NCBI RefSeq assembly: GCF_004339015.1
Contig: NZ_SMFQ01000005.1
Coordinates: 434,001-498,000, forward strand
Source of the DNA: Cocleimonas flava
GTDB lineage: Bacteria; Pseudomonadota; Gammaproteobacteria; Thiotrichales; Thiotrichaceae
Direction of reading: 5' to 3'
DNA: 64,000 nt
The notes under the pieces were generated by a model. It made no database searches, was not told the DNA's origin, and saw only the letters and a program-made list of their open reading frames with translations. The translations under genes were made by a program, and so were the position numbers. Positions 48,174 to 63,508 of the stretch are shown piece after piece (positions within the stretch are counted from its first letter, which is position 1; every line of letters begins with the position of its first letter).

Positions 48174-49241
48174 TCAAGACAGTAAAGCAACCGTTTTAAC
48201 TTGTGCATAAACCTGTTTGCCAGGCTTTAAATCCATCACTGTTGCTGACTTCAAACTAAGCCTCGATAAAATGGGGACGCCGTTTGCCATTAACTTCACC
48301 ATCACCTGCGAATGGTTTTCGGATATGATTTCGTCAACAATGACAGGGAATATATTCAAGATGCTGGTTTCGGTTTGATGCTTGAGCGTTAAACTTACAT
48401 CACGCGCCACTATCCTTAATTTTACCGTACTCCCGATTGCCAGATTACTTTGCAATACGGATAAACGCCCCCCTGCAAAATCAAGGTAGGTTAATCCAAA
48501 CGCTTCATCGTGTTCGGCAACCGTTGCCTGTATAAAAGCGGCGGCTTTATGACTTTGCGCTATCGGTAAATCAAGCCGCGAAAATAACTCGGTGACATTG
48601 CCTGAAGCGGTTACGCGACCGTCATCCAATAGCACCATGTGATCAGCCAGCCTTGCGACTTCACCCAAAGAATGACTGACGTAAATGATAGGGATATCGA
48701 GCTCATTATGCAGGGATTGAAGGTATTGCATAATTTCCTGCTTACGTTCTAGATTAAGCGATGCTAGTGGCTCATCCATCAGTAAAAGCTGGGGGCTTAC
48801 TGCCAAGGCTCTGGCGATTGAGACCCGCTGGCGTTCTCCGCCTGAGAGTTGATTTGCCTTACGCTTTAATAATGCACCAATGCCGAGTAATTCTACCGCG
48901 GTCTCCAGGGATACTTTGCGGTCCGCTTTCGGAACGCGCTTCATACCATATTCAAGATTGGCTTGAACGTCGAGGTGGGCAAATAAGCTGGCTTCCTGAA
49001 ACACATAAGCAAGCGGGCGTTTATGGGTTGGGACAAATTGCTGACTGTCTTGCCATACTGAATCTCCGACACGTAAGTATCCTTCCGGGCTATGTTCCAG
49101 ACCGCTGATTGATCTCAACAAGGTCGTTTTACCGCAACCCGATGGACCGAAAATGACACTCACACCTTTATCGGGCAAGGTCAGGTCAACATCCAGAACG
49201 AAGTCCTTACGATCAATTCGAAAACGCGCTTCTATACTCAT
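48174..49241 (-). CDS. modC: Molybdate ABC transporter ATPase
   Basis: ATP-binding subunit, 355 residues. Walker A FGPSGCGKTTLLR, Q-loop YVFQEASLFAHLDV, signature LSGGERQRVSIARAL, Walker B LLLMDEPLASLN, switch His VSHSLGEVARL. The C-terminal ~100 residues form a TOBE/Mop domain (IGSTVKLRIVARDVSLTL), which distinguishes ModC from other importers. Last gene of the - strand CO-oxidation block. Supplies molybdenum for CoxL, and presumably for SoeA. Confidence 0.92.
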   Translation of the reverse strand: MSIEARFRIDRKDFVLDVDLTLPDKGVSVIFGPSGCGKTTLLRSISGLEHSPEGYLRVGDSVWQDSQQFVPTHKRPLAYVFQEASLFAHLDVQANLEYGMKRVPKADRKVSLETAVELLGIGALLKRKANQLSGGERQRVSIARALAVSPQLLLMDEPLASLNLERKQEIMQYLQSLHNELDIPIIYVSHSLGEVARLADHMVLLDDGRVTASGNVTELFSRLDLPIAQSHKAAAFIQATVAEHDEAFGLTYLDFAGGRLSVLQSNLAIGSTVKLRIVARDVSLTLKHQTETSILNIFPVIVDEIISENHSQVMVKLMANGVPILSRLSLKSATVMDLKPGKQVYAQVKTVALLS

Positions 49242-49257
49242 TTGCAGTTAACTTTCA

Positions 49258-49941
49258 TTACGGTTGCGCGACCAGAAAACGTCGATTGAGCGCATAAACT
49301 ATCATTAGCATCAGAAAAGAAGCCAGTAATAGTCCGCCTGATAGCCAATGCGCCTGGCTGTATTCGAGTACTTCGACATGATCATAAATAGCGATTGAAA
49401 CAACCTGAGTCTGACCGGGAATGTTTCCACCAATCATTAAGACTACGCCAAACTCTCCTACCGTGTGGGCAAAACCGAGTACCGCCGCGGTAAGAAAGCC
49501 AGATCGTGCGAGTGGTATTTCAACCGTAAAAAAACGATCGATAGGTGATGCCCTGAGGGTAGATGCGACTTCTAATGAGCGAGTTCCGATTGAGGCAAAA
49601 GTACCTTGCAAGGGCTGCACCACAAAAGGCAGGCTGTAAATAACGGAGCCAATCACCAGACCGCTAAAGGTAAATGCTAATGGTTTCATACCCAGCCAAT
49701 CCATTAACCCACCAATAGCACCATGCGGCCCTAGTGTTATGAGTAAATAAAAGCCGAGTACGGTAGGCGGTAACACTAAAGGCAGTGCCACCATCGCCTC
49801 GATTAAAAATTTAAATCGCCAGCGCGTACGTGCCAGCCACCATGCAAGCGGTGTACCTAACAGTAATAAGATGGCGGTAGTGGTGCAAGCGAGTTTAAGT
49901 GTGATTATGAGTGCGGTTAAATCAGCGTCACTCAATGTCAT
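49258..49941 (-). CDS. modB: Molybdate ABC transporter permease
   Basis: Membrane subunit, 227 residues with about five to six helices. Key motifs: [16 protein letters not shown] near the start, [16 protein letters not shown], and the ATPase-contact loop [53 protein letters not shown], all typical of ModB. Overlaps modA by 4 bp (ATGA) and precedes modC by 16 bp. Confidence 0.93.
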
Positions 49942-50720
49942 GGTTCGGTACCATAGCCAAAGCGGTGAATGATGGAATGCGATGATGCTGACTTCATCAT
50001 GCTGATGAAATCTCGTGTCGCCTGATTATTTTTTAGGATCACAGCTTGCTGTGTAATTTGAGAATACAGTGACTGTGGGATATCCCAGTAGGTACCTGTG
50101 ATGGTGTCATTCATTTGTTTTAATTGAGAGTACGCCACAAAACCTAGTTGTGCATTGGCACTTTTAACGAACTGGAAGGTTTGCCCGATGTTCTCACCGC
50201 GCACCACTTTTGTTTTTACCGCATCCCAGACACCTTTGTTTGACAATACTTCATAAGCGGCTTTGCCATAAGGGGCAAGCTTAGGATGAGCCATTGCTAT
50301 ACGTTTAAATCTGCCATGGCTCAATACACTTCCGTTTTGATCTATCAGGTCATCTTGTGGGCTCCATAAAACGACTTTTCCCAAAGCATAGGTGAAGCGG
50401 CTACCGGGGACGATTAAACCTTCTTTTTCTAACAATTCTGGGCGGTGACTGTCGGCAGAGAAAAATGCATCAAAAGGGGCGCCATTTTTTATTTGCGCAT
50501 AATGCCTTCCTGTCGAGCCATAAATGAGCGTGACTTTGTGATTGGTTTCTTCTTCAAATTTTCTGGCAATTTCTGCGATAGGACTTTTAAAATTACTAGC
50601 TACCGCAATAAGAATTTCATCTGCTTTGGCTGATGCCGAGCTTGTTATTAATACTATCAGCACGGTGAAAAGTAAGTTTTTTATATTCAGCTGCATCATC
50701 GTTAGTTCAATCCGTCTCAT
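49938..50720 (-). CDS. modA: Molybdate-binding periplasmic protein
   Basis: 260 residues with a Sec signal peptide ending near SASAKADE. The mature part begins [24 protein letters not shown] and continues [40 protein letters not shown], with the Ser residues that bind molybdate or tungstate in ModA, then [16 protein letters not shown]. The start at 50720 has AAAGGT a few bases upstream; two further Met codons lie at 50699 and 50696, closer to the signal peptide core. Confidence 0.9.
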
Positions 50721-50738: not shown

Positions 50739-51407
50739 TTAAGCTATTTGTTGTTTGCCATAAGCCAACTGAAATACTTTCTTTACGTATGTTGATAAAT
50801 ACAAAAGCGATAGCATACCTATTATCATGCCTATAAGCATAAACGATATCATGATCGCATTACCCCAAAACAGTTCTAGCTTTTTCGTTAAGGTCATCGA
50901 GAGTATATGCGCAGATAACATTCCCAGCAGCATTCCTATATTGCAAAGTGCAAATTCAACGCATTGTTTTTGGCTAAACTTCCAGCCCTGTCGCAGTCTT
51001 AGAAATAAAAGCATTCCTGCATTTCCTCCCGCAAACATCCCTAAATACATCCAGGGTGTTGATTCAAGCATAAACCATAAAGACTCAACGCTTAGAGGTG
51101 CTTCAGGGGCAGAACGACATATCGACATTAGGCCGAATGGACCATTCAGGCCGAGATTATCAATATCGATCGCGTAGCCAATAAACATTCCCAAACCACC
51201 TGCTGCAAACATAGACATAGTCATATCCAGGTATTTTAAATGTGGTTTATAAATAAGCAATGCTGCACAAGCCAAAGCCAATGGTATTCCAAAGAAGGTA
51301 TAAACAGATACGCTTGCGCTTGTATTAAGCATCAGTACTTTGCAAAACATAAAAACTTGCAATAGTACCAGCAGCATCACTATTCCTACTTTGAAGTGCT
51401 TATCCAT
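50739..51407 (-). CDS. Met-rich multi-pass membrane protein of unknown function
   Basis: 222 residues, not recognised. About five or six hydrophobic segments. Methionine is strikingly frequent (about 20 of 222), mainly inside the membrane segments as MxM/MxxxM clusters (YLDMTMSMF, WMYLGMFAGGNAGM, MISFMLIGMIIGM), and there are three non-clustered Cys. The gene is within the CO-dehydrogenase/molybdenum block, 6 bp from sufU and 18 bp from modA, so it should serve the same pathway. Because the CODH active site is a Cu-S-Mo cluster and no copper importer is visible, a copper-handling role is an attractive hypothesis only. Confidence 0.6.
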   Translation of the reverse strand: MDKHFKVGIVMLLVLLQVFMFCKVLMLNTSASVSVYTFFGIPLALACAALLIYKPHLKYLDMTMSMFAAGGLGMFIGYAIDIDNLGLNGPFGLMSICRSAPEAPLSVESLWFMLESTPWMYLGMFAGGNAGMLLFLRLRQGWKFSQKQCVEFALCNIGMLLGMLSAHILSMTLTKKLELFWGNAIMISFMLIGMIIGMLSLLYLSTYVKKVFQLAYGKQQIA

Positions 51408-51413
51408 AACTTC

Positions 51414-51836
51414 TCATTCCACCTGAATAATACTTTCAAGTGCATCCCATGCGAGTAACACGCAACGTCGGCGTGCAGGATATTGTCGTAAAGCATCGAG
51501 TGCAAAAAGTGTCTCTAGCGGTGCTGGCGTATCGCCTTGTTTTTCATCAAACCACTCTCGTAATTGTTCGGTAAGTTCTAGCACCTCATTTTTTGAAGCG
51601 CCTGTCACCGACTCCGTCATCATTGACGCTGACGCCATACAAACAGAACAACCTCGGCCTTGAAAGACAATTTTACCAATGTTATCACCATCAAAATCTA
51701 CGCCGATTTTTATATCATCACCGCAACGAGGGTTACTACCGCGATGAACCGCCTCTGATTGACTCACGTCAGAAAAATTTCGAGGGTTTCGATAATGATC
51801 CATCAATACTTCTTTATAAACTGTATTTGTAGTCAT
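51414..51836 (-). CDS. sufU: Fe-S/sulfur-carrier scaffold protein SufU
   Basis: 140 residues from ATG 51836, chosen because GGAGG lies 5 bp upstream; a longer frame overlapping sufS adds 40 residues without family match. SufU motifs: VLMDHYRNPRNF, the ligand sites NPRCGDD, GRGCSVCMASASMM and RRRCVLLAW. SufU is an IscU-fold protein that accepts persulfide from SufS and in Gram-positives aids Fe-S assembly. No sufBCD is present here. In this setting, next to XdhC/Mo-cofactor genes, it may relay sulfur to the CODH active site rather than build Fe-S clusters. Confidence 0.9.
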   Translation of the reverse strand: MTTNTVYKEVLMDHYRNPRNFSDVSQSEAVHRGSNPRCGDDIKIGVDFDGDNIGKIVFQGRGCSVCMASASMMTESVTGASKNEVLELTEQLREWFDEKQGDTPAPLETLFALDALRQYPARRRCVLLAWDALESIIQVE

Positions 51837-51846
51837 AGGACCTCCA

Positions 51847-53115
51847 TCAACGCGGCATGAAAATGCTTTGAGCGGTCTCGATAACTTCGAGCAAAGCATT
51901 GATTTCTTCTTCAATATTATAGGGTGCGAAACTGGCACGCACCGTTGCAACTTCACCCAGACGTCTCATCAACGGCTGACAACAATGATGCCCTGAACGG
52001 ATTGCGACATTACTCTCACCCGCAATCTGGGCTATATCGTGAGGGTGAATGCCATCGAGATTGAATGAAATGATTCCTTCTCGTCGCTCAGAATCTAATG
52101 GACCGTATATTTTAATTCCATTGATATTTGATAATGCAAATAGTGCTTTTTCGGTGAGCTCAGAAACAATGGATTCTATGGTTTGTAAACCTATACTTTC
52201 TATATAATCCACGGCGCTCGCAAAACCAATTGCACCGGCAAGGTTTGGAGACCCAGCTTCAAGTTTTGATGGAAGCGAAGCCCAGCTACTTTCATAGTCA
52301 CCCACTTCATCGACCATACCGCCACCTAGCAACATGGGTTCCATTGTTGCTAGTTTATCTGCCTTTCCGTAAAGCGCTCCTATGCCTGTAGGGCCGTACA
52401 TTTTATGTGCGGAAAATGCGAGAAAGTCACAATCTAGTTCGACCACATCAACAGGGATATGCCCGACTGACTGAGTCGCATCGATCAGTACCGGAATACC
52501 AGCTTGAGCAGCACGTTGGGTTACTTCTTTAACTGGGTTTATCACACCGAGTACATTTGACACGTGAGACATTGCAATGAAACGAGTTTTTTCGCTGTAC
52601 AACTCTGTCGCATTGTCTAAATCGAGACTGCCATCTTCTGTTAGCTCGATGAAGCACAATTCAGCCCCTGTTTCTTTACAGACTCTTTGCCAGGGTACTA
52701 AGTTGGCATGGTGTTCCATGCCTGTCACCCATACTTTATCGCCAGCATTCAAATGATGTTTTAACCACCCTTGAGCGACCATGTTTATTGATTCGGTTGC
52801 GGAAAGCGTAAAAATCAGTTGTTCTGATTGTGGCGCACCGATGAATTGCGCTACTTTCTTTCGTGATTTTTCATAAGTCGTAGTGGATTCGTCAGCCAGC
52901 GCATACAGCCCTCTATGCACAGGTGCATTGACTCGTTGATAGCAATCACTAATAGCATCGATTACCTGCTGTGGTTTTTGGCTAGTAGCGGCGTTATCCA
53001 AATAGTGAAGTTGATTATCTCCAGAGTATAAATTCAATAACGGAAAATCCTTACGAATAAGCTGGCTCTGCTTTTGAATGTTGAACGTTTGTTTGATGTA
53101 AGGATTAGTGCTCAT
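51847..53115 (-). CDS. sufS: Cysteine desulfurase SufS
   Basis: PLP-dependent group II cysteine desulfurase, 422 residues, which mobilises sulfur from cysteine as an enzyme persulfide. Motifs: LDNAATSQKPQQVIDA, PVHRGLYALADESTT, TGMEHHANLVPW, DATQSVGHIPVDV, LAFSAHKMYGPTGIGALYG (PLP Lys) and RSGHHCCQPLMRR (active-site Cys). It is 3 bp after coxI and 10 bp before sufU. In Rhodobacter a desulfurase works with XdhC to sulfurate the Mo cofactor, which this neighbourhood strongly recalls. Confidence 0.92.
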   Translation of the reverse strand: MSTNPYIKQTFNIQKQSQLIRKDFPLLNLYSGDNQLHYLDNAATSQKPQQVIDAISDCYQRVNAPVHRGLYALADESTTTYEKSRKKVAQFIGAPQSEQLIFTLSATESINMVAQGWLKHHLNAGDKVWVTGMEHHANLVPWQRVCKETGAELCFIELTEDGSLDLDNATELYSEKTRFIAMSHVSNVLGVINPVKEVTQRAAQAGIPVLIDATQSVGHIPVDVVELDCDFLAFSAHKMYGPTGIGALYGKADKLATMEPMLLGGGMVDEVGDYESSWASLPSKLEAGSPNLAGAIGFASAVDYIESIGLQTIESIVSELTEKALFALSNINGIKIYGPLDSERREGIISFNLDGIHPHDIAQIAGESNVAIRSGHHCCQPLMRRLGEVATVRASFAPYNIEEEINALLEVIETAQSIFMPR

Positions 53116-53118
53116 CCT

Positions 53119-53937
53119 TTATCCTGCTACCGCCAGCTCTTGAGATTCCATTGCCAGTTTATCGCGCATACGCATACCCGTTCCCTGACGACGTACCATG
53201 ACTAACTCAGAGATGACACATAAGGCGATTTCCTCTGGTGTTTTTGCGCCTAAATCTAATCCTGAAGGTGCCATTACGCGCCCTATATCGTGTTCAGAGA
53301 AGCCTTCCTTACGGATATAGTCCAACACTAATCGAGACCGTTTGCGACTCGCGATGAGTGCGATATATTCAGCTTGTGATTGTAATGCCCGAGTCATCGA
53401 TTCGTGATCACCCTTATGCTGCGTGGCTATAACAACATAGTCATCTGGCAAAGGAGCCAATTGATCATACATAATGTCATCGGTAATTAATTGGGTTGCA
53501 TCGGGGAAATGTTCTTCATCCGCGATTGGGTCATTGACGACAACATTCAGTCCTACCAAATCTCCCAGATGACATAAGCATTCGGCAACCCGACCATGAC
53601 CCATAATCCATAACGTAGGCTTTAACATCACAGGTTCTACATAAACTCTCATGTGTCCGCCGCATGGCATTCCTGCACCGAGGATTTCATCATCCAGATC
53701 AATATCAATAACCGCTGTTTGACCGGTTTTTATGCTTTCTAAAGCAGCTTCACAGCTTGTGGATTCGGCACAACCTCCGCCAACCCATCCACCCACAACA
53801 ACGCCTTCATGATCAATGACTGCTTTTGAACCTGTCTTGGCGGAGACTGAACCTATGGTTTCTACTACCGTGGCAACCGCATAAGGTTCACCTTTTGCTT
53901 TCATTTCTATTAATACGTCTAGTATCTCTTTTGCCAT
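53119..53937 (-). CDS. coxI: XdhC/CoxI-family molybdenum-cofactor maturation protein (second copy)
   Basis: 272 residues. XdhC-family start (AVATVVETIGSVSAKTGSKAVIDHEGVVVGGWVGGGCAES), a Rossmann part (PTLWIMGHGRVAECLCHLGDLVG), and the C-terminal AEYIALIASRKRSRLV and IGRVMAPSGLDLGAKTPEEIALCVISELV. XdhC proteins bind and protect the sulfurated Mo cofactor and insert it into the enzyme. It is a paralogue of the gene at 54595; the two share motif order but differ in sequence, as CoxF and CoxI do in Oligotropha. Confidence 0.85.
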   Translation of the reverse strand: MAKEILDVLIEMKAKGEPYAVATVVETIGSVSAKTGSKAVIDHEGVVVGGWVGGGCAESTSCEAALESIKTGQTAVIDIDLDDEILGAGMPCGGHMRVYVEPVMLKPTLWIMGHGRVAECLCHLGDLVGLNVVVNDPIADEEHFPDATQLITDDIMYDQLAPLPDDYVVIATQHKGDHESMTRALQSQAEYIALIASRKRSRLVLDYIRKEGFSEHDIGRVMAPSGLDLGAKTPEEIALCVISELVMVRRQGTGMRMRDKLAMESQELAVAG

Positions 53938-53962: not shown

Positions 53963-54598
53963 TTATTTATTATTAGCCTGTTTATTTTGATCGCTTTTCT
54001 GGTTCGAGTTTTGTTGAAAAGCGGCGTAATCTTCGGGGGTATCCAGATCAAAAACGACGTGATTGTTATCCATCTCAAAGGATGTCACGAGTTCTGGATT
54101 TTTTTCTATAAGCCGTCTGCAGCCAAGGTTTTTTTGACCATTTAAGATCGCTGATCTTTGCTCTTGTGCAAGAATTATCGGGTTTCCTCGTTGACCTTGA
54201 TAAGTCGGTACAAGCACTGAGCCACTGCTGCGATTTTCAAATGCTTCTATAATGATGTTTATGTCTGATGATTCTAATAACGGCTGATCTGAAAGACAAA
54301 TCATGACACCATCACTTTCCTGAGTTAAGGACTCTAAGCCTTTATGCACTGAACTCATTTGTCCTTTTTGATAGTCATCATTCATCACAATTTTTAGCGG
54401 CAGACCGGATATCAGTGATTTTGTCTTATCGGCTTCATGACCGACTACCACGACTACCTCCTGTAATTCAGATTCGAGTAGAATTTTTGCTGTTCGGCGT
54501 AATAGTGAGATGCCATTCGCATCCAACTCTAATTTGTTTGGTTTACCCATCCGTCGAGACTCACCTGCAGCGAGCAAAATTGCAGAAACAGATTTCAT
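53963..54598 (-). CDS. mocA: Molybdenum-cofactor cytidylyltransferase-like (MocA/MobA fold)
   Basis: About 211 residues. N-terminal nucleotidyltransferase signature ILLAAGESRRMGKPNKL, then VVVVGHEAD, SDQPLL, VLVPTYQGQRGNPIIL and DLDTPEDYAAF. It attaches CMP to molybdopterin, giving the cytosine-dinucleotide form needed by CO dehydrogenase. ATG 54598 overlaps the coxF stop (ATGA); an upstream start at 54628 overlaps more. C-terminal tail is Asn/Gln/Lys-rich and may be disordered. Confidence 0.88.
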   Translation of the reverse strand: MKSVSAILLAAGESRRMGKPNKLELDANGISLLRRTAKILLESELQEVVVVVGHEADKTKSLISGLPLKIVMNDDYQKGQMSSVHKGLESLTQESDGVMICLSDQPLLESSDINIIIEAFENRSSGSVLVPTYQGQRGNPIILAQEQRSAILNGQKNLGCRRLIEKNPELVTSFEMDNNHVVFDLDTPEDYAAFQQNSNQKSDQNKQANNK

Positions 54599-55512
54599 GA
54601 GACGGTATCTTTTCCCATACTTCCACAACAGCTTGGTGCTTCTTCGGCTGTTTTTTCCTCTGCTGTTGCCTTTTCCTCTACTGTTGCCTTTTCCTCTGCT
54701 GTAACCTCTGCTACTGATGAAGCACTAGCCGCAAGTCCTCGATTCGCTTTGACTAACTCTGCGACTACCGACAATGCAATTTCTTCCGGCGTTATTGCCC
54801 CTATTTCAATTCCAATCGGGGATAAGATTGCATCCACTTTGTTTTTATCATTTCCGCTTTCGATAAGGGAGACCTTTACTTTCTTTGCTTTACGTTCACT
54901 GGCAATAAACCCAATGAATTCTGAGTTGGTTGCTAGCGCCTGCTTTAAACCGTCCTCATCTCCTTTGCCTTGAGTTGCGACAACAACAAAAGGTGGATTA
55001 CTATATTTCAATGCAGAAGCGTCCAATCCGTCAATTACCTCGATCGCATCGGGATAAAGTTCTTTATTCGCACCGGGAAACATCGCTGTGACTTCAAAAC
55101 CTGTTCGATGTGCGAGTATTGAGAGTGCTTGCGCACTGGGTGCTGCTCCTATAATCAACAATGTTGGTTTTGGAATAACGGGGTCAATAAAAATATCCAA
55201 AGTGCCTCCACTAAGACAATTCATACCAAAACTTATAATACCGTCATCGACTAACGTGCCTTTGTCTGGACTAACTCGAATGAGTCTTCCCTGCCCGTCT
55301 TTCAATGATTTTTTTACCGTAGCAATTACGGCCGGCTGCGCACAGCCTCCACCAATCCAGCCTTGAATTTCACCACTTTCAAAAACCAAAGCTTTAGCGC
55401 CAGGTTTTGCAGAGGTAGGAGATTCACAGCGAACAACAGTCGCTAATGCAAAGGGCTGTCGTTTAATTTTAAGTTCGCTTGCTTTTAGTAATATTGAGTC
55501 TGTTTCTATCAT
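54595..55512 (-). CDS. coxF: XdhC/CoxF-family molybdenum-cofactor maturation protein (first copy)
   Basis: 305 residues. FALATVVRCESPTSAKPGAKALVFESGEIQGWIGGGCAQPAV at the N terminus, PTLLIIGAAPSAQALSILAH Rossmann part, and IGIEIGAITPEEIALSVVAELV near the C terminus. The tail (about the last 35 residues) is an Ala/Glu/Lys repeat (KATVEEKATAEEK) encoded by 18-bp tandem repeats and ends in SCCGSMGK, a possible metal-binding CC motif. The next gene, mocA, overlaps by 4 bp. Confidence 0.85.
   Translation of the reverse strand: MIETDSILLKASELKIKRQPFALATVVRCESPTSAKPGAKALVFESGEIQGWIGGGCAQPAVIATVKKSLKDGQGRLIRVSPDKGTLVDDGIISFGMNCLSGGTLDIFIDPVIPKPTLLIIGAAPSAQALSILAHRTGFEVTAMFPGANKELYPDAIEVIDGLDASALKYSNPPFVVVATQGKGDEDGLKQALATNSEFIGFIASERKAKKVKVSLIESGNDKNKVDAILSPIGIEIGAITPEEIALSVVAELVKANRGLAASASSVAEVTAEEKATVEEKATAEEKTAEEAPSCCGSMGKDTVS
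54648..54710 (-). repeat. 18-bp tandem repeats in the 3' end of coxF
   Basis: Two almost identical 18-bp units (54663-54680 and 54681-54698, core CTGTTGCCTTTTCCTCT) with partial units on both sides. They encode a repeated six-residue Ala/Glu/Lys motif. Copy number may vary between strains. Confidence 0.85.
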
Positions 55513-55527
55513 TTTAATAACTTCATA

Positions 55528-56715
55528 TTAAATTCTCATCAGCTCTGGTTCTAAAGCGCTTAAGCTCTCGACATTATGTGCTGAGGCGAATAAGTCTATA
55601 AAAGGTAAAGCCGCTAACATACTTCCTGTTTTTGGCTCATAACCTGGACGACCAAGTAAAGGATTCAACCAGATTACCTTTCGACATTGGCTTTTGATTG
55701 TAGCTAGCTTATTTGCAAGGAACTCTGGTTTACCTGTATCCAAACCATCACTAACGACCATCACCACAGTATGCGAGTTAAGACGATGCCTATAATTATT
55801 GAGGAAACTGTCCAGGCATTCTCCTATCCTTGTTCCGCCAGACCACCCTGCAGAAATTAATGATAGTTTCGTCTTAACCTTTGTCAGGTTAGGTTGATGT
55901 AAAGCTCCGGTGATGTGCACCATACGTGTATGAAAGGCAAAAGCATCGGCATCACGCATAGAACTTACTATGCCTCTTGCGAAACGCAAAAACACATAAC
56001 TGTATAGCGACATGGAACGGCTTACATCGATAATAATAATTAATCGAGGCTGATTCTTGCGATTATTTCTAAACGCTAAATCCATTGGCATACCGCCATA
56101 ACGTAAACTTTTCCGTACCGTTTTACGGATGTCTATTCTTCGTCCTTTTGCCTGAATTTTCTGTCGTCTAATAATACGTCGACGCATTTTCTTGGCTAAA
56201 CGCTCGACTAAATCATCTACCTCACTCATTTGCTTAGCATCAGTAATAAACTGAAAATCAGCATTGAATAAAGACTCCTGACCGCTTGCTCCTTCTAGCG
56301 CCCCACCATCAAAGGCATCATCACCTTCTCCCTGTCCTGCTTGATCAACATCAGTGGCTTCTCCGTCATTCACCTCAGCTTCGCGGGCAACTGATTCACG
56401 TTTACCAACAGGTGCTCCTGCGACTGACTCAGTCCGGTAATTTTGCTTTGCAGATGGAAGCCAGTATGCGTCAAACAAATCATCAAAGCGTTGCCAGTCA
56501 TTCTGATTACTGCAAAGTAAGCTGCGCAAACCCCAACGCAGATATTGTGGATGTGTAATGTTAAGACTATGCGCGACTTCCTGAGCATCAATAACCTCAG
56601 AAATTCCAGCCTGATATCCATTATTTCGAGCTATTTGTATAAACTCGATGAGTCTTCCCTGTAAAATTTCAGCAGTTGATGAATGCTCTATTTCACTTAA
56701 AAAGTCTCGACTCAT
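55528..56715 (-). CDS. coxE: CoxE, von Willebrand A-domain maturation protein
   Basis: 395 residues. The C-terminal VWA domain has an intact metal-ion adhesion site: LIIIIDVSRSMSLYS (DxSxS), a conserved Thr (SGGTRIGE) and VVMVVSDGLDTG. N-terminal half is an acidic, linker-like region. CoxE works with the AAA+ protein CoxD in building the Cu-S-Mo active site of CO dehydrogenase. It overlaps coxD by 4 bp. Confidence 0.9.
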   Translation of the reverse strand: MSRDFLSEIEHSSTAEILQGRLIEFIQIARNNGYQAGISEVIDAQEVAHSLNITHPQYLRWGLRSLLCSNQNDWQRFDDLFDAYWLPSAKQNYRTESVAGAPVGKRESVAREAEVNDGEATDVDQAGQGEGDDAFDGGALEGASGQESLFNADFQFITDAKQMSEVDDLVERLAKKMRRRIIRRQKIQAKGRRIDIRKTVRKSLRYGGMPMDLAFRNNRKNQPRLIIIIDVSRSMSLYSYVFLRFARGIVSSMRDADAFAFHTRMVHITGALHQPNLTKVKTKLSLISAGWSGGTRIGECLDSFLNNYRHRLNSHTVVMVVSDGLDTGKPEFLANKLATIKSQCRKVIWLNPLLGRPGYEPKTGSMLAALPFIDLFASAHNVESLSALEPELMRI

Positions 56716-57599
56716 ATCACTTTTGCGACTAAACGTTCAATTTCCATAGATCCTAACGCTTCGCTGTCTTCTCTTGTTTTCAACAAACAAACCAAAGAAT
56801 CTTTTATCGCTTCAATATCATCATCCAGTGAGCTGACATCTAAGCTCAATAAAGACGCGGCCCAATCCAGTGTTTCTGCAACACCGGGATTTTTTTGCAG
56901 ATCTATTCGTCGTAAATTCTGCACAAAACCCACTACTTGGCGAGATAGTTGCAAACCAATATCCGGCACCCGAGTATTGACAATGCGTAACTCTCTTGCA
57001 AAATCCGGATAATCGACATAGTGATACAAACATCGTCTTCTAAGCGCATCGCTTAGCTCACGTGTTCCATTTGACGTCAAAATCACATAGGGTTTACTTG
57101 TAGCTTCAATAGTCCCTAATTCAGGAATGGAAATTTGAAAATCTGAAAGCACTTCCAGTAAATAGGCTTCAAACTCTTCATCTGCACGGTCGATTTCATC
57201 TATCAACAGCACGGGAGGTTTTTGCTGGGTAATTGCTTTTAATAATGGCCTTTCTAGCAAATATTTTTTACTGAAAATTTCCTGTTCGGTTTTATCAATC
57301 TGTTCTTCTGACTGCTCTAATAGCTTAACAGCTAACATCTGGCGCTGATAATTCCACTCATACACAGCAGTATTAACATCTAAACCTTCGTAGCATTGAA
57401 GTCGAATCAATTTGCAATCAAACACTTCTGATAAAGCTCGACTAATCTCTGTTTTACCTACACCCGCCTCTCCTTCTAAGAGGATAGGACGTTGCAGGCT
57501 TTTCATTAGTACCAGAGATGACGCCAGGCTGCGCTCACAAATGTATCCGACATCAGTTAACTGACTCTGAAATTCATTAATTTTATTTGTCTTACTCAT
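56712..57599 (-). CDS. coxD: CoxD, MoxR-type AAA+ ATPase
   Basis: 295 residues. Walker A LEGEAGVGKTEISRAL, Walker B PVLLIDEIDRADEEFEAYLLE, sensor VILTSNGTRELSDALRRRCLYHYVDYP. In Oligotropha, CoxD is needed for sulfuration and copper insertion of the CODH cluster. It lies between coxG and coxE, in the order usual for cox operons. Confidence 0.92.
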   Translation of the reverse strand: MSKTNKINEFQSQLTDVGYICERSLASSLVLMKSLQRPILLEGEAGVGKTEISRALSEVFDCKLIRLQCYEGLDVNTAVYEWNYQRQMLAVKLLEQSEEQIDKTEQEIFSKKYLLERPLLKAITQQKPPVLLIDEIDRADEEFEAYLLEVLSDFQISIPELGTIEATSKPYVILTSNGTRELSDALRRRCLYHYVDYPDFARELRIVNTRVPDIGLQLSRQVVGFVQNLRRIDLQKNPGVAETLDWAASLLSLDVSSLDDDIEAIKDSLVCLLKTREDSEALGSMEIERLVAKVI

Positions 57600-57647: not shown

Positions 57648-58226
57648 TTATTTGCCGAAAAGAGATTTTAAATAGCCAACAAAAATCGACCATGCAAATG
57701 CTAAACCATTGAGTTCTTTAGGCTGTTCCGCGACTACTTTTGCGGCTTCCTCAGCACTTTCACCTTCCCCCATAGCGACTACATTATTCGCAAAGTTCTT
57801 ACCAAATTGATTGAGAATTTGATCTGCCACCTGCGTCATCATACGACCGCCGAAGTTAGCAACTTTACCTGTGACCGTAACTGTCGCCACACCAACTAAT
57901 TCCGTGGCTCCACTCTCTCCTTTTCTTACCGAAGCTGTCAGGTCCATTTCTGCTGCCGATGTACCCTTTGTATCTTGCCCCTTGCCTATAAAGTGTAAGG
58001 ATTTATTCTCCTCGTTTATTTCTTGTATTTCGATATCGCCTTCAAAAGACATCGTCGCTGGACCTACTTTCGCCCTTACCTTGCCCTTATAATTATTGGC
58101 ATCCACTTGCTCGGTGATTTCTGCTCCCGGCATACAGCTAGCAACGCCAGGAATATCCTGTAAAAAGGTCCACGTATTTTTTTCAGAACCATCTATTTCA
58201 AAAACTTTGTCTAAGTCAACTTTCAT
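57648..58226 (-). CDS. coxG: CoxG, SRPBCC-domain membrane-linked protein
   Basis: 192 residues. The SRPBCC/CoxG fold has WTFLQDIPGVASCMPGAEI, YKGKVRAKVGPATMSFEGDIEI, and VTVTGKVANFGGRMMTQVADQILNQFGKNFANNV. A short hydrophobic segment at the end (LAFAWSIFVGYLKSLFGK) can anchor it to the membrane. CoxG is proposed to recruit CODH to the membrane for electron transfer to quinone. Confidence 0.9.
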   Translation of the reverse strand: MKVDLDKVFEIDGSEKNTWTFLQDIPGVASCMPGAEITEQVDANNYKGKVRAKVGPATMSFEGDIEIQEINEENKSLHFIGKGQDTKGTSAAEMDLTASVRKGESGATELVGVATVTVTGKVANFGGRMMTQVADQILNQFGKNFANNVVAMGEGESAEEAAKVVAEQPKELNGLAFAWSIFVGYLKSLFGK

Positions 58227-58287: not shown

Positions 58288-60693
58288 TCACTTAGCCTTA
58301 TCAAGACCTAGTTCATGACATTTTTGCCATACTCTATATGCGGAATGAGGCATATTCATATGAGTTACATCTAAGTGGGCAAATGCATCAACTACTGCCG
58401 CGGTGAAGGTCGGAATACTACCCACATGAGGTGATTCAGCGACACCTTTGGCTCCTAATGGATGATGAGGCGAAGGCGTGACGGTGTAATCAGTCTCCCA
58501 ATGAGGTGTCTCTACTGCGGTAGGTAGGAAGTAATCCATTAAGCTATTACCTTCAATATTACCTTCAGGATCAAAGGACAGTTCCTGACCCATCGCAACC
58601 GCGTATCCCTCTGTTAAACCACCGTGTATTTGCCCTTCGATAACCATTGGATTAATACGAGTACCACAGTCATCCAAAGCGTAGAACCGACGTACTTTTG
58701 TTACTCCCGTGTACTTATCAATATCTACAACACAAAGATAAGCACCAAATGGGTAGGTATATTCCGGTGGATCATAGTAATCAACCGCTTCTAAACCAGG
58801 TTCCATACCTTCAGGCAAGTTATTGTAAGCAGCCCAGGCGATATCTTTCATGGTCTTCTCTTGACCGGGAACGCCTTTAACTTTGAAGCGATCAACATCC
58901 CATTCGAGATCGTCATCACTGACTTCAAGTAGATGTGCGGCGATTTTTGCTGCCTTTGCCTTTATCTTTCGGGCAGCAACTGCGGTAGCTGCAGCACCTA
59001 CTGGTGTAGTTCTTGAACCATAAGTACCTAAACCATAAGGAGCTGTATCTGTATCACCCTCTTCTATTTGAATTTCTTCAGAAGGAATTCCAAGTTCAGT
59101 AGCTATAATCTGAGCGTATGTGGTTTGATGCGCCTGACCTTGAGTAATGGTACCCATACGAGCCAATGCGCTGCCGGTTGGATGAACTCGAATCTCAGCA
59201 CTATCAAACATGCCAACACCCAGAATGTCACAAGACTTACTAGGACCAGCCCCAACGATTTCAGTAAAGGTCACAATACCGATACCCATTAGTTCGCCAT
59301 TAGCGCGTTTTTCTTCCTGCTCTTTTCTTAACTCTTTGTAGTCAACAGCATCAAGAACCTTATTTAACGCGGTGTGATAATCACCACTATCAAGATTTGC
59401 ACCTAAAGCCGTTGGATATGGGAATTGTTCTGGCTTAACAAAATTCTTCAATCTTATTTCGGCTTTATCCATTCCTAATTTTTGAGCCAGCACATCCACC
59501 ATTCTTTCAACCACATAGACCGCTTCTGTCACACGGAAAGAACAACGGTAGGCTACGCCACCTGGCGCTTTATTGGTGTAAACACCATCAACTCTCGCGT
59601 AAGCATTAGGAATATCATACGAGCCTGTACAAATATGGAACATGCCTGCGGGGAATTTTGAAGGATCAGCACAAGCATCAAAGGCACCATGATCGGCTAA
59701 CACATTAACTCTTAGTGCTTTTATTCTTCCTTCGTTATCCGCAGCAAGCTCACCTTCCATATGCCAATCACGGGCGAAACCTGTTGTGGTTAGGTTTTCA
59801 ATACGACTCTCGACCCATTTAACAGGACGACCTAAAACGATAGATGCCACCATTGCAGTAACATAACCGGGATATATCGGCACCTTATTACCAAAGCCAC
59901 CACCGATATCAGGAGAAATGATCCTGACTTTACTCTCAGGAATACCTGACAGCATAGAAACTACGGTGCGAACGACATGAGGTGCCTGAGATGTTACATA
60001 AGCTGTTAGTTTGCCTTCAATTTTGTCAAAGGAAGCTAAACAGCCACAGGTTTCTAATGGGCAAGGATGAACACGATGGTAAAACATGTTTTCTTTAACG
60101 GTTACTTCAGCATCTTCAAATGCTTGATCCGTACTTTCTTTATCACCAACATCCCATGTGAAAATATGATTATCATGTAGACGTTTACTATGCGCACCGT
60201 CCATCTTACCGATGAGATCTTCACGTATAACAGGCGCATCTGAGTCCATAGATTTATGCGGATCAACTAACGCTGGCAATGGTTCATATTCAACCTTAAC
60301 CAACTGCACAGCATCTGCTGCGATATAACGATCATTTGCAATGACAACTGCCACTTCCTGCATTTGAAAAACCACTTTTTCATCTGCCAATACTGCCTGA
60401 ACATCTCCCGCGAGTGTCGGCATCCAATGAAGGTCAAGCGGCTTTAAATCATCTGCTGTCAGTACGGCATGAACACCTGGTAGTGCTAACGCTTCTGTTT
60501 TATCGATAGAAATAATACGTGCATGCGCATAAGGACTTCTTACAATTTCGGCACATAACATACCAGGCATTTTAATGTCGTCGACATAGTTACCTTTGCC
60601 TTGAATAAAGCGAGGGTCTTCCTTACGCTTTCGTGAGCAACCGACTCCCTGAAGTTTTTCTTCTCTTTCAATACTTTCAGCTGAAGTACTCAT
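58288..60693 (-). CDS. coxL: Aerobic CO dehydrogenase large subunit, form I
   Basis: Molybdenum-copper catalytic subunit, 801 residues. It oxidises CO with water to CO2, two protons and two electrons. The active-site loop reads VAYRCSFRVTEA with Cys384, the AYxCSFR signature of form I (true CO dehydrogenases); form II has AYRGAGR. Other family segments are LQGVGCSRKRKEDPRFIQGKGNYVDDI, ISPDIGGGFGNKVPIYPG, and HPLGAKGVAESPHVGSIP with the conserved Glu near the C terminus. GGAGGG precedes the start by 7 bp, and coxS ends 2 bp before it. Confidence 0.97.
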   Translation of the reverse strand: MSTSAESIEREEKLQGVGCSRKRKEDPRFIQGKGNYVDDIKMPGMLCAEIVRSPYAHARIISIDKTEALALPGVHAVLTADDLKPLDLHWMPTLAGDVQAVLADEKVVFQMQEVAVVIANDRYIAADAVQLVKVEYEPLPALVDPHKSMDSDAPVIREDLIGKMDGAHSKRLHDNHIFTWDVGDKESTDQAFEDAEVTVKENMFYHRVHPCPLETCGCLASFDKIEGKLTAYVTSQAPHVVRTVVSMLSGIPESKVRIISPDIGGGFGNKVPIYPGYVTAMVASIVLGRPVKWVESRIENLTTTGFARDWHMEGELAADNEGRIKALRVNVLADHGAFDACADPSKFPAGMFHICTGSYDIPNAYARVDGVYTNKAPGGVAYRCSFRVTEAVYVVERMVDVLAQKLGMDKAEIRLKNFVKPEQFPYPTALGANLDSGDYHTALNKVLDAVDYKELRKEQEEKRANGELMGIGIVTFTEIVGAGPSKSCDILGVGMFDSAEIRVHPTGSALARMGTITQGQAHQTTYAQIIATELGIPSEEIQIEEGDTDTAPYGLGTYGSRTTPVGAAATAVAARKIKAKAAKIAAHLLEVSDDDLEWDVDRFKVKGVPGQEKTMKDIAWAAYNNLPEGMEPGLEAVDYYDPPEYTYPFGAYLCVVDIDKYTGVTKVRRFYALDDCGTRINPMVIEGQIHGGLTEGYAVAMGQELSFDPEGNIEGNSLMDYFLPTAVETPHWETDYTVTPSPHHPLGAKGVAESPHVGSIPTFTAAVVDAFAHLDVTHMNMPHSAYRVWQKCHELGLDKAK

Positions 60694-60695
60694 GT

Positions 60696-61181
60696 TTAGC
60701 CCTCCTCTTTTGCTTGTAATTTTTCAGCGGCATATTGAACTGACTTAACAATATTCTGGTATCCGGTACATCGGCATAAATTGCCAGACAAACCAACACG
60801 GATTTCCTCTTCTGTAGGATTAGGGTTTTCTTGAAGGAATCGATAAGATCTCATCAACATGCCCGGCGTACAAAATCCACACTGCAAACCATGCTCTTGC
60901 ATAAAACCTTCTTGAACAGCGTGTAAACCATCATCGCTCGCCAAACCTTCTACGGTCATTAGCTCTGAGCCATTAGCCTGAACGGCTAAAATGGTACAAG
61001 ACTTAACTGAGATTCCATCCATATCGACAGTACAAGCACCGCAGTGAGAAGTTTCGCAACCTATATGACTACCTGTTAACGATAATTTTTCTCGCAAGGT
61101 ATGAATCAACAATTCACGAGGCTCAACTAATACATCGACTTGTTCGTTATTTAACGTAAATGAAACTGCTGTCTTTTTCAT
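60696..61181 (-). CDS. coxS: Aerobic CO dehydrogenase small (2Fe-2S) subunit
   Basis: 161 residues that carry two [2Fe-2S] clusters. The plant-type N-terminal cluster uses [17 protein letters not shown] and the Cys of VKSCTIL; the all-helical second domain uses [14 protein letters not shown] and [12 protein letters not shown]. It passes electrons from the Mo-Cu site to FAD in CoxM. Overlaps coxM by 4 bp (ATGA). Confidence 0.97.
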
Positions 61182-62047
61182 ATTTCCCCCTTTGCTCTTT
61201 GCAATGCTATCCGAATGGCACGTCGAGTCATTTCACCGGCCATATGAGTTTTGTATTCAACATCACCTCTCAGGTCTTCAGCGGGATCACATATTGACAT
61301 CGCTTTTTCAGCAGCCTCTTCGATTAAACTTTCATCAATGACTTTTCCGGCTAATAAGTTCTCAGCCTCTTCAGCTTTAAGAGCCGTCGGCCCGACATTG
61401 GTCATAACGATACTGATGCTTGAACAAGTATCCCCATCCAGAGTTAAAATCACTGCAGTAGCCGCAGTAGCAAAATCACCTGTCTTACGTTTTAGTTTGG
61501 TATAGGCATAACCCGAATTAGGTTTTGCCACAGGAACCTGAATTTCTTTAAGAATTTCATTCTCGCCAAGTTCGGTCCAATAGGTTCCTAAAAAGAAACT
61601 ATTGGCAGGAACAGTGCGTTCACCATCAGGACTTTGAAGAACAAAGATCGCGTCCAATGCCATCATGATACTGGGATGATCATTACCCGGATCACCATGG
61701 GCAATATCTCCACCAATGGTGCCGCGGTTTCGTACCTGTGGGTCTGCAATTAGTTTTGCCGCCTCTGGAATCAACGGGCATTTTTGTTGCAACAACTCTG
61801 ATACGATCAACTCGCTTTCAGTGGTCATTGCCCCTATGAGAATATGATCGCCTTTGTCACTAATCCCCTTTAGTGCTTCAACGCCGTTGATATCGATTAG
61901 ATGTGTCGCTTCGGCAAACCGAAGTTTCATCATTGGTAATAGACTATGACCACCAGCGAGAATTTTCGCCTCGTCATTTTCCACCATCAACTTCAGCACC
62001 TCATCTATGGTAGATGGAGCAAAGTATTCAAACTGCTCTGGAATCAT
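61178..62047 (-). CDS. coxM: Aerobic CO dehydrogenase medium (FAD) subunit
   Basis: 289 residues of the CODH/xanthine-oxidase FAD-binding type. [17 protein letters not shown] and [22 protein letters not shown] are the two FAD-binding motifs (AGGHS and TIGG), followed by the C-terminal CODH flavoprotein domain ([20 protein letters not shown]). AAGGAGG directly upstream is a strong ribosome-binding site. First gene of the cox operon, after a 377-bp regulatory gap. Confidence 0.96.
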
Positions 62048-62424: not shown

Positions 62425-63147
62425 TTATTTTAGGCCAAGTAATTCTTTTATCATTTGTACATTACCTCGACTTACGGGTATCTCTGTTTCGTCATTATCG
62501 TCTAATAAAATCATGCACTGATCATTCACTTTTTTGAAGGCTTTGGCATAACGAATATTTACGATAAAGCTGCGATGAATACGAATGAAACAGTCGGTAT
62601 CAAGCCGCCCTTCTAAATCAGCAAGCGACAAATTACACAAGTAGCTATTATCTATACTTGAAACATCGGTGTAATGACCATCTGCCTTTAAATAAACCAC
62701 TTGATCCAAATCTATTAAGGTGACTTGTTTGTTCGAATAAATAGGTAGTTTAAACAATAAGCGAAGCTCAGCATTGGCCCCTTTATTATCATTTATGGGT
62801 AACGTTGTAATATCTGTAAGATCATAAAAAACCATACAGGTAGCCGTATAATCACCAGCACCAGTCATTTTGCTAACTTTAATCAGTAACACCTTATCTG
62901 GGATGTTAATCATCATCGTCATAGGAGGAGGAGACTCAACTGGACAGCGAGAAGACTCTAGCAACCAAGACACCTTATCTCGGCTCTTTTCCGGGTGAAA
63001 TTGGAGAATCTGTTTACCAAGAACATCATCACCTTCGATATCTAAAATTTCAGTCGCAATGTCATTCATTGCAAGAACCTTGTTTTTCCCATCTAACCAA
63101 ATAATGCCAGGCTCAAACTTTTGTAATTTGTGTTGAAACGTCTCCAT
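62425..63147 (-). CDS. rcoM: RcoM, haem-PAS / LytTR CO-responsive transcription factor
   Basis: Single-component CO sensor of about 240 residues. The N-terminal PAS domain (METFQHKLQKFEPGIIWLDG) contains QFHPEKSRDK, RCPVESPPP and TMMINIPD: His51, Cys68 and Met78 line up with the haem ligands His74, Cys94 and Met104 of Burkholderia RcoM (recalled). The C-terminal LytTR domain (~135-240) includes LIDLDQVVYLKADGHYTDV, CNLSLADLEGRLDTDCFIRIHRSFIVN and IPVSRGNVQMIKELLG. ATG 63147 is chosen for match to RcoM and the AGGAAATAGG just upstream; a longer frame to 63231 is unlikely. It directly precedes coxMSL on the same strand, so it should activate them when CO is present. Confidence 0.92.
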   Translation of the reverse strand: METFQHKLQKFEPGIIWLDGKNKVLAMNDIATEILDIEGDDVLGKQILQFHPEKSRDKVSWLLESSRCPVESPPPMTMMINIPDKVLLIKVSKMTGAGDYTATCMVFYDLTDITTLPINDNKGANAELRLLFKLPIYSNKQVTLIDLDQVVYLKADGHYTDVSSIDNSYLCNLSLADLEGRLDTDCFIRIHRSFIVNIRYAKAFKKVNDQCMILLDDNDETEIPVSRGNVQMIKELLGLK

Positions 63148-63508
63148 CCTATTTCCTATATATATTTTTCGATGACACAAATAATTAATTTTGAAGTCAT
63201 TCAATACCTGATAATTAAAATACCCAGACAAATAACAACGACGAATATTTCTTCACGCTAGTTTGAGCATAAGACAAAACAAGCCATCTCCTATTTCATT
63301 GATCGAAAATAGCAAAAAAAAATAGATCTATCGATTTAAATTATGCTTTCATTAAAATAATGAGAGAGAGATACCTTTTAATATCAAACATATAAAACAA
63401 TCAACTTAGATATTAAGGTCAATACGCCGCAATATTTTTAGCGCAATGTTTAGAATTGTAGTCTATCCAACACTTGGAAGAAGGATAGACCTAATATAAG
63501 AAAAACGC
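63148..63508. other. 361-bp gene-free AT-rich spacer upstream of rcoM
   Basis: No open frame recognised. One stem GTCTATCC (63461-63468) / GGATAGAC (63483-63490) lies 19 bp after the edge gene and may terminate it, though no T-run follows. The remainder presumably holds the rcoM promoter. Confidence 0.6.

Follow-up and report, generated by a model that had tools for sequence, protein, structure and literature searches.

A methionine-rich membrane protein family of CO dehydrogenase gene clusters is a candidate Cu(I) importer

The Mo-Cu CO dehydrogenase (CODH) removes much CO from air and sea; its copper is bound to the Cys of the motif VAYRCSFR. To our knowledge, very few copper importers have been proven in bacteria, and we know of no described copper route to this cytoplasmic enzyme upstream of CoxE/CoxF. 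In the Ctr/COPT proteins, which we take to be Pfam PF04145, each chain has three helices and the chains form trimers. CcoA and CalT are copper importers of the MFS type, with 12 helices, that serve cbb3 oxidase. An excerpt of PMC8406296 gives the functional residues of CcoA as Met233xxxMet237 (TMH7), Cys247 (loop), and His261xxxMet265 (TMH8), and MxxxM plus HxxxM motifs are termed a reliable predictor of Cu import in the text available from PMC6362234, from which the terms “carbon monoxide” and “CO dehydrogenase” are absent. For CODH itself, coxE or coxF mutants make enzyme with Mo and S and no Cu, and soluble CoxF has been proposed to supply the copper together with membrane-bound CoxE (excerpt of PMC4240915). 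A literature search returned no paper pairing aerobic CODH with a copper transporter, a copper importer, or CcoA. A “hypothetical gene” is marked in the cox clusters of two Burkholderiales, according to the legend of Figure 2 in PMC11771112.

The window, a stretch of 64,000 nucleotides from Cocleimonas flava, contains at 50739–51407 on the minus strand an ORF of 222 aa with an ATG start. The ORF, a sequence profile, and an AlphaFold model together define a six-helix Met-rich membrane protein, the founder row of what we call family A. Its gene is part of an uninterrupted run on the minus strand from 62047 (coxM) to 48174 (modC), with small gaps or overlaps between genes. The run begins with ORFs that we take, by position and recall, to be coxM-like (61178–62047) and coxS-like (60696–61181), followed by form-I coxL with the copper-site motif VAYRCSFR (58288–60693), coxG (57648–58226), a presumed coxD-like AAA+ ATPase gene, also named by position and recall (56712–57599), and coxE (VWA; 55528–56715). 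There follow xdhC_b, a second XdhC-like ORF named by its sequence and its relatives in cox loci (54595–55512), the gene of a MocA-like molybdenum cofactor cytidylyltransferase (53963–54628), xdhC_a of the XdhC/CoxI family (53119–53937), a gene for a sufS-family cysteine desulfurase (51847–53115), a sufU-like gene (51414–51956), the target, modA (49938–50720), modB (49258–49941), and modC (48174–49241). Names without a qualifier here, and those of the MocA-like, XdhC/CoxI, and sufS genes, rest on family matches. The sufU-like gene matches TIGR01994 over residues 44–177 of its ORF, so its true start is probably inside the ORF.

The target is 7 kb downstream of coxL, 6 bases from the sufU-like gene and 18 bases from modA, and the gene order thus confirms the placement between sufU and modA inside the CODH run given in the preliminary description. 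The coxM–modC run may be one transcript. When the sequence was searched for promoters and terminators, promoter-like sites were less frequent than in shuffled sequences and terminator-like sites somewhat more frequent, and we draw nothing from this result. Comparison of the target with close relatives gave dN/dS values of 0.06–0.23, and hence the gene is under purifying selection. Since modABC (48174–50720) adjoins the target directly on its 3′ side, molybdenum uptake and presumed copper uptake would be encoded side by side. The sufS-like and sufU-like genes (window positions 51414–53115), which are also found within the cox run at four other loci (L002, L003, L006, L010), may serve as a sulfur donor reserved for the Mo=S ligand. 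Upstream of coxM, a domain match identifies a PAS-LytTR regulator, presumably RcoM-like (62425–63231, minus strand), a relative of which is present beside most cox loci whose gene order was examined.

Methionine makes up 20 of the 222 residues (9.0%), matching the figure of about 9% reported earlier for exactly this ORF. We compared it with the ORFs of the window and of a further 400 kb from its genome, counting as membrane ORFs those with at least four hydrophobic segments. The target has the highest Met content of the 58 predicted membrane ORFs (mean 3.6%, s.d. 1.3; next highest 6.3%) and is alone among all 353 ORFs in reaching 9% or more. Six MxxxM pairs are present, a number reached by composition-preserving shuffles with P = 0.003; one other membrane ORF of the 58 has at least three. 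The preliminary description had also placed the Met residues in the membrane helices, as MxM and MxxxM clusters. Indeed, 16 of the 20 fall within predicted transmembrane helices, but they are not strongly concentrated there as such because the helices already take up 153 of the 222 residues; likewise, the MxxxM positions are conserved, whereas the MxM cluster M62-M64-M66 mostly is not. What is distinctive in the target is the MxxxM spacing and its conservation.

Single-sequence searches with the target found no match in Pfam, NCBIfam, PDB sequences, or 57 related genomes, and a pattern scan of genome contigs was also negative. Relatives came from the ORFs of 80 coxL neighborhoods taken from public genomes, searched with phmmer first and then with an iterated profile. 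Family A comprises 25 loci in Gammaproteobacteria, including Burkholderiales, all of them among or beside form-I cox genes. Fourteen are among the 80 coxL loci (L008, L010, L027, L028, L034, L036, L037, L038, L042, L054, L056, L065, L068, and L070); the others are the window, L139, L140, L141, L112, L156–L159, L171, and L177. L141 is a short contig with mocA and an XdhC gene, coxL being on another contig of that genome. Because the fourteen coxL loci and L141 were reached through coxL, they say nothing on linkage by themselves. Nine matches were not chosen via coxL (G273, G446, G077, G473, G513, G737, G754, G1071, and plasmid pBN2 of Paraburkholderia aromaticivorans BN5; G1115 repeats an identical stretch of G513 and was counted once), and all nine adjoin cox genes. 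The BN5 member, WP_025496592.1, encoded by CJU94_RS37765, is annotated “hypothetical protein” and is flanked by nucleotidyltransferase and XdhC genes. Copies broken by frameshifts were seen at L112:16450–17204 and L010:20149–20812, which may reflect decay or assembly error. A match in the phylum sample, G783 (E = 4.8e-5), was rejected as a member: it is part of a 1036-aa ORF with 23 hydrophobic segments and no cox neighbors, and it did not reappear at E = 0.01.

Neither Pfam nor NCBIfam has an entry for family A. Weak Pfam matches among 20 members were to FTR1 in two (best E = 0.0055), Peptidase_A8 in one (0.01), and DUF5957 in one (6.8e-5), and an identity with FTR1 iron permeases, signal peptidase II, or DUF5957 was rejected, none of these matches being family-wide. 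Like family A, CoxB and CoxK of the Afipia carboxidovorans cox cluster are uncharacterized accessory proteins; the genes at their positions on pHCG3 are annotated as “transporter” (one hydrophobic segment) and as a DMT family transporter. The family A profile has no significant match there (best E = 0.39), and we rejected this identity as well.

Linkage to CODH was also examined by genome-wide counts, with coxL called positive when form-I coxL scored above the TIGR02416 cut-off. In the class sample (n = 369), family A was present in 3/12 coxL-positive and 0/357 coxL-negative genomes (Fisher p = 2.6e-5; 8.1e-4 without the window's genome); the Burkholderiaceae sample (n = 299) gave 5/29 and 0/270 (6.2e-6; 6.4e-5 without the genome at the center of that sample). 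The two samples may share some genomes and were therefore not pooled. Two of the 63 genomes of the order sample have coxL above the cut-off, and the same two have family A, the copy in G077 being broken by a frameshift. Among 44 coxL-bearing genomes (a count that leaves out the genome of L005), the first profile matched family A in only eight; G077 was missed there and found with a better profile. Every confirmed member is thus beside cox genes, while most coxL genomes are without family A, so that the expected co-occurrence with form-I coxL holds in one direction: family A implies CODH, whereas CODH does not imply family A. Distances among family A proteins track those among their CoxL partners (Mantel rho 0.70, a value that none of 2000 permutations attained). 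The copper-site Cys is conserved in all 22 CoxL partners; in 20 of them the motif reads AYRCSFR, and in two it has one substitution.

Conservation was computed on a 22-row alignment of family A. Twenty columns are at least 90% conserved: G73, M74, G77, D81, C97, P118, G123, M124, G128, C155, M159, G162, M163, G166, M186, M190, G193, M194, G197, and M198, that is 8 Met, 2 Cys, 1 Asp, 1 Pro, and 8 Gly. Met is over-represented among them relative to all columns (hypergeometric p = 4e-5). The longest conserved Met ladder is in TM6 (M186, M190, G193-M194, G197-M198; codons 186–198, 50814–50852, minus strand, as are all codons given here). TM5 carries C155-x3-M159-x2-G162-M163 (codons 155–163, 50919–50945), the start of TM4 carries P118, M120, Y121, and G123-M124 (codons 118–124, 51036–51056), and TM3 carries G73-M74, G77, and D81 (codons 73–81, 51165–51191). 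C97 (51117–51119), in the TM3–TM4 loop, which charge pattern predicts to be periplasmic, is absent only in L140, where His-His-Met is close by. M120 is retained in 18/22 rows, and position 121 is His in 17/22. The conserved MxxxM pairs are in TM5 and TM6, joined in most members by M120/M124 in TM4. The window protein has M74, D81, C97, M124, C155, M159, M163, M190, M194, and M198, all marks of the family, and a GMxxG stretch in each of its last four helices.

The structure prediction proposed earlier, run here with AlphaFold on 20 sequences, gave a confident model (mean pLDDT 87.1, pTM 0.80) with six helices at residues 3–24, 29–53, 58–84, 118–140, 146–174, and 179–221, the conserved residues being mostly in the last four. 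These four look like the core of the protein, since the short members L027 (177 aa), L159 (178 aa), and L177 (165 aa) are, as called, without most or all of the first two helices. With the N terminus inside, the mean number of Lys plus Arg per loop is 1.7, 1.9, 3.5, and 3.8 on the inside and 0.6, 1.6, and 0.7 on the other side; the positive charges agree with a predicted N-in, C-in topology. In the model so oriented, C97, D81, P118–M124, and M186–M190 would be periplasm-ward and M74, M194, and M198 mid-membrane, followed by M163, M159, and C155 cytoplasm-ward, and these residues would presumably meet in space. Foldseek found no match to the model among solved structures at E ≤ 0.001, and the best VIA match (Z 6.6, rmsd 4.0) covers only 55 residues. 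An hhalign comparison hints at an internal repeat of TM4 and TM6 (E = 7.9e-4, with a probability of only 25%). No clear homology to an unrelated transporter family emerged from Pfam, NCBIfam, PDB, or Foldseek, and profile and structure comparisons found no homology to known copper transporters. Copper supply to a metalloenzyme is a known kind of function; the protein architecture of family A appears not to be known.

Family A can be compared with CcoA/CalT. Both are inner-membrane proteins tied to the genes of one copper enzyme, with conserved Met pairs at i, i+4 and conserved Cys. They differ in that family A, modeled with six helices in 222 aa, does not have the MFS fold; it also has no conserved HxxxM and does not share the CcoA arrangement of MxxxM in TM7, Cys in the next loop, and HxxxM in TM8. 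Homology to canonical CcoA-like proteins was not supported, there being no profile similarity. With Ctr/COPT, family A shares a transmembrane MxxxM motif and the packing of Gly-rich helices; it differs in helix number, with six in the model and about four in the shortest members. A Ctr identity was rejected, with no Ctr match at E up to 1 in the 20 members scanned.

In several cox operons without family A, the corresponding place is filled by a CcoA-like protein. This second membrane family, family B (about 370–550 aa), is encoded between the MocA-like and XdhC genes (mocA/xdhC_a) in Limnohabitans, Hydrogenophaga, Rubrivivax, and relatives; the profile search recovered it at L026:17722–18888, L018:17660–18865, L047:17826–19337, and 27 more loci. 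It has no match in Pfam, NCBIfam, or PDB. A model (pLDDT 86.0, pTM 0.86) has transporters as its best Foldseek matches, with a probability of 1.00, and these we take to be members of the MFS superfamily; VIA also assigns the MFS fold (Z 23.4, rmsd 4.0 over 342 residues). The motif M-x3-M-x9-C-x13-H-x3-M is present in predicted helices 7 and 8 of 21 of the 23 aligned members, and its 4-10-14-4 spacing is that of CcoA. Because it combines the MFS fold with this Met/Cys/His motif, family B is most likely a divergent CcoA-like importer, an assignment by predicted fold and motif that sequence profiles leave unproven (hhalign against canonical CcoA-like proteins found no link, probability 0.2%). It is likely the copper importer of its CODH. 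A plain MFS_1 protein with CcoA spacing was also seen at 12 loci (11 aligned; e.g., L031:4720–5898), mostly a few kb upstream of coxM, and may serve either CODH or a neighboring oxidase.

Profile comparison did not support homology between families A and B. At five loci (L008, L027, L171, L177, and L159), family A is in or close to the slot of B. Across the 80 coxL loci, A is present in 14, B in 30, and both in none; the 45 loci with enough flank divide into 10 with A, 24 with B, and 11 with neither (Fisher p = 1.1e-4, a value that ignores descent). A tree of 57 CoxL rows shows eight changes in all; B occurs in one part of it only, and A is scattered through the remainder. In our reading, B took the place of A in essentially a single event, and there were several losses besides. 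The tree offers only four independent pairs, on which the A/B exclusion is without significance, and the exclusion is suggestive of a natural substitution, short of statistical proof. The 11 loci with neither family include the nearest CoxL relatives of the window (L002, L003, and L005); given these and the many coxL genomes without it, family A is not needed for form-I CODH in general.

The conserved residues of family A are Met and two Cys, and a CcoA-like protein stands in its place elsewhere; on these grounds we strongly infer that family A handles copper, and the copper-handling role suggested in the preliminary description is well supported at this level, its interpretation being supported in part. 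Import is the reading that best fits a family found only with CODH, with 8 Met and 2 Cys conserved, and replaced elsewhere by a CcoA-like importer. We therefore lean, by a little, toward the view that the target belongs to a new family and imports Cu(I) specifically for Mo-Cu CODH; copper binding, its movement, the inward direction, and CODH as the client are all inferred. The broader proposal has, in our view, an even chance of being right: family A would be a new class of Cu(I) importers in bacteria, compact bundles with four Met-ladder helices that serve Mo-Cu CODH alone, and would have been replaced once in a Burkholderiales clade by an unrelated CcoA-like MFS importer.

Such a protein would have six inner-membrane spans and both termini on the inside, and its last four helices, each with a GMxxG stretch, would be the working core. 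On the periplasmic side, Cys97, Asp81, Met120 with Tyr or His121, Met124, Met186, and Met190 would capture Cu(I), which would pass down a thioether ladder of Met74, Met194, Met198, Met163, and Met159 and exit at Cys155 in the cytoplasmic half. The released Cu(I) would then go to the CoxE/CoxF machinery that loads copper into CoxL.

The same residues and the same cox linkage would also suit a membrane-bound Cu(I) chaperone or loading platform that hands Cu to CoxE/CoxF or CoxD with no transport. CoxE is indeed membrane-bound and CoxF receives copper (excerpt of PMC4240915), and L027, L159, and L177 look reduced to a four-helix core. However, family A is almost wholly membrane-buried in the model, and its conserved residues are distributed from the periplasmic half through to the cytoplasmic one, an arrangement more in keeping with a path than with a docking site. 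Family B, its alternative, has the fold of a transporter. We regard the chaperone as rather unlikely.

Met-rich helices can also bind copper for sensing, and family A could conceivably sense a gas or a metal in a copper-dependent way, much as the MHYT domain of CoxC does, and signal CO, O2, or Cu to the nearby LytTR regulator. CO sensing by CoxC relies on a Met/His/Tyr membrane domain and requires copper (excerpt of PMC11347149). Both family A and the MHYT proteins (PF03707; CoxC and CoxH of A. carboxidovorans) are Met-rich membrane proteins of cox clusters, most family A members have M-H-x-G-M in TM4, reminiscent of M-H-x2-G-M, and at L156, L157, and L158 (Burkholderiales) the family A gene is divergent and next to the PAS-LytTR gene. 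But the motif spacing differs, there is no LytTR or other DNA-binding or output domain, and the window protein, L139, L140, and L141 have Tyr or Phe in place of His at position 121. In the window, L139, L140, L171, and L177, moreover, the gene is among maturation genes. An MHYT identity was rejected, PF03707 being found in none of 20 members and nowhere in the window's genome, with an hhalign probability of 0.07%. Sensing thus appears improbable. A stand-alone MHYT protein is encoded directly upstream of coxM at L146:9861–10598, in a gammaproteobacterium.

Small, too, is the chance that family A is a non-copper membrane factor, be it for sulfur or thiol supply to the Mo=S ligand, for molybdate, or as an electron link to the respiratory chain. 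Helices rich in Met do not necessarily bind metal, and in the window the target lies between sufU and modA. Yet the cox run has no sufS or sufU at L139, L008, L027, L171, and L177; of the loci examined for gene order, the window is the only one with mod genes directly adjoining the family A gene; and, Asp and Pro aside, the invariant residues are soft-metal ligands plus Gly. Met clusters also serve copper export (CusA), and the same Met/Cys path could run outward in an exporter protecting the cell when copper is mobilized for CODH, but this seems very improbable for a family linked, at the 25 loci, with an enzyme that uses copper rather than with copper resistance genes, and whose alternative, family B, carries the motif of an importer.

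A Met/Cys family found only with cox genes and exchanged for a CcoA-like protein provides a direct, testable entry to the copper supply step of CODH. If family A does import Cu(I), it would represent a new protein architecture for moving this ion, and aerobic CO oxidation would have a copper supply line of its own, with two interchangeable parts. Family A may also be a missing part for the heterologous production of active CODH.
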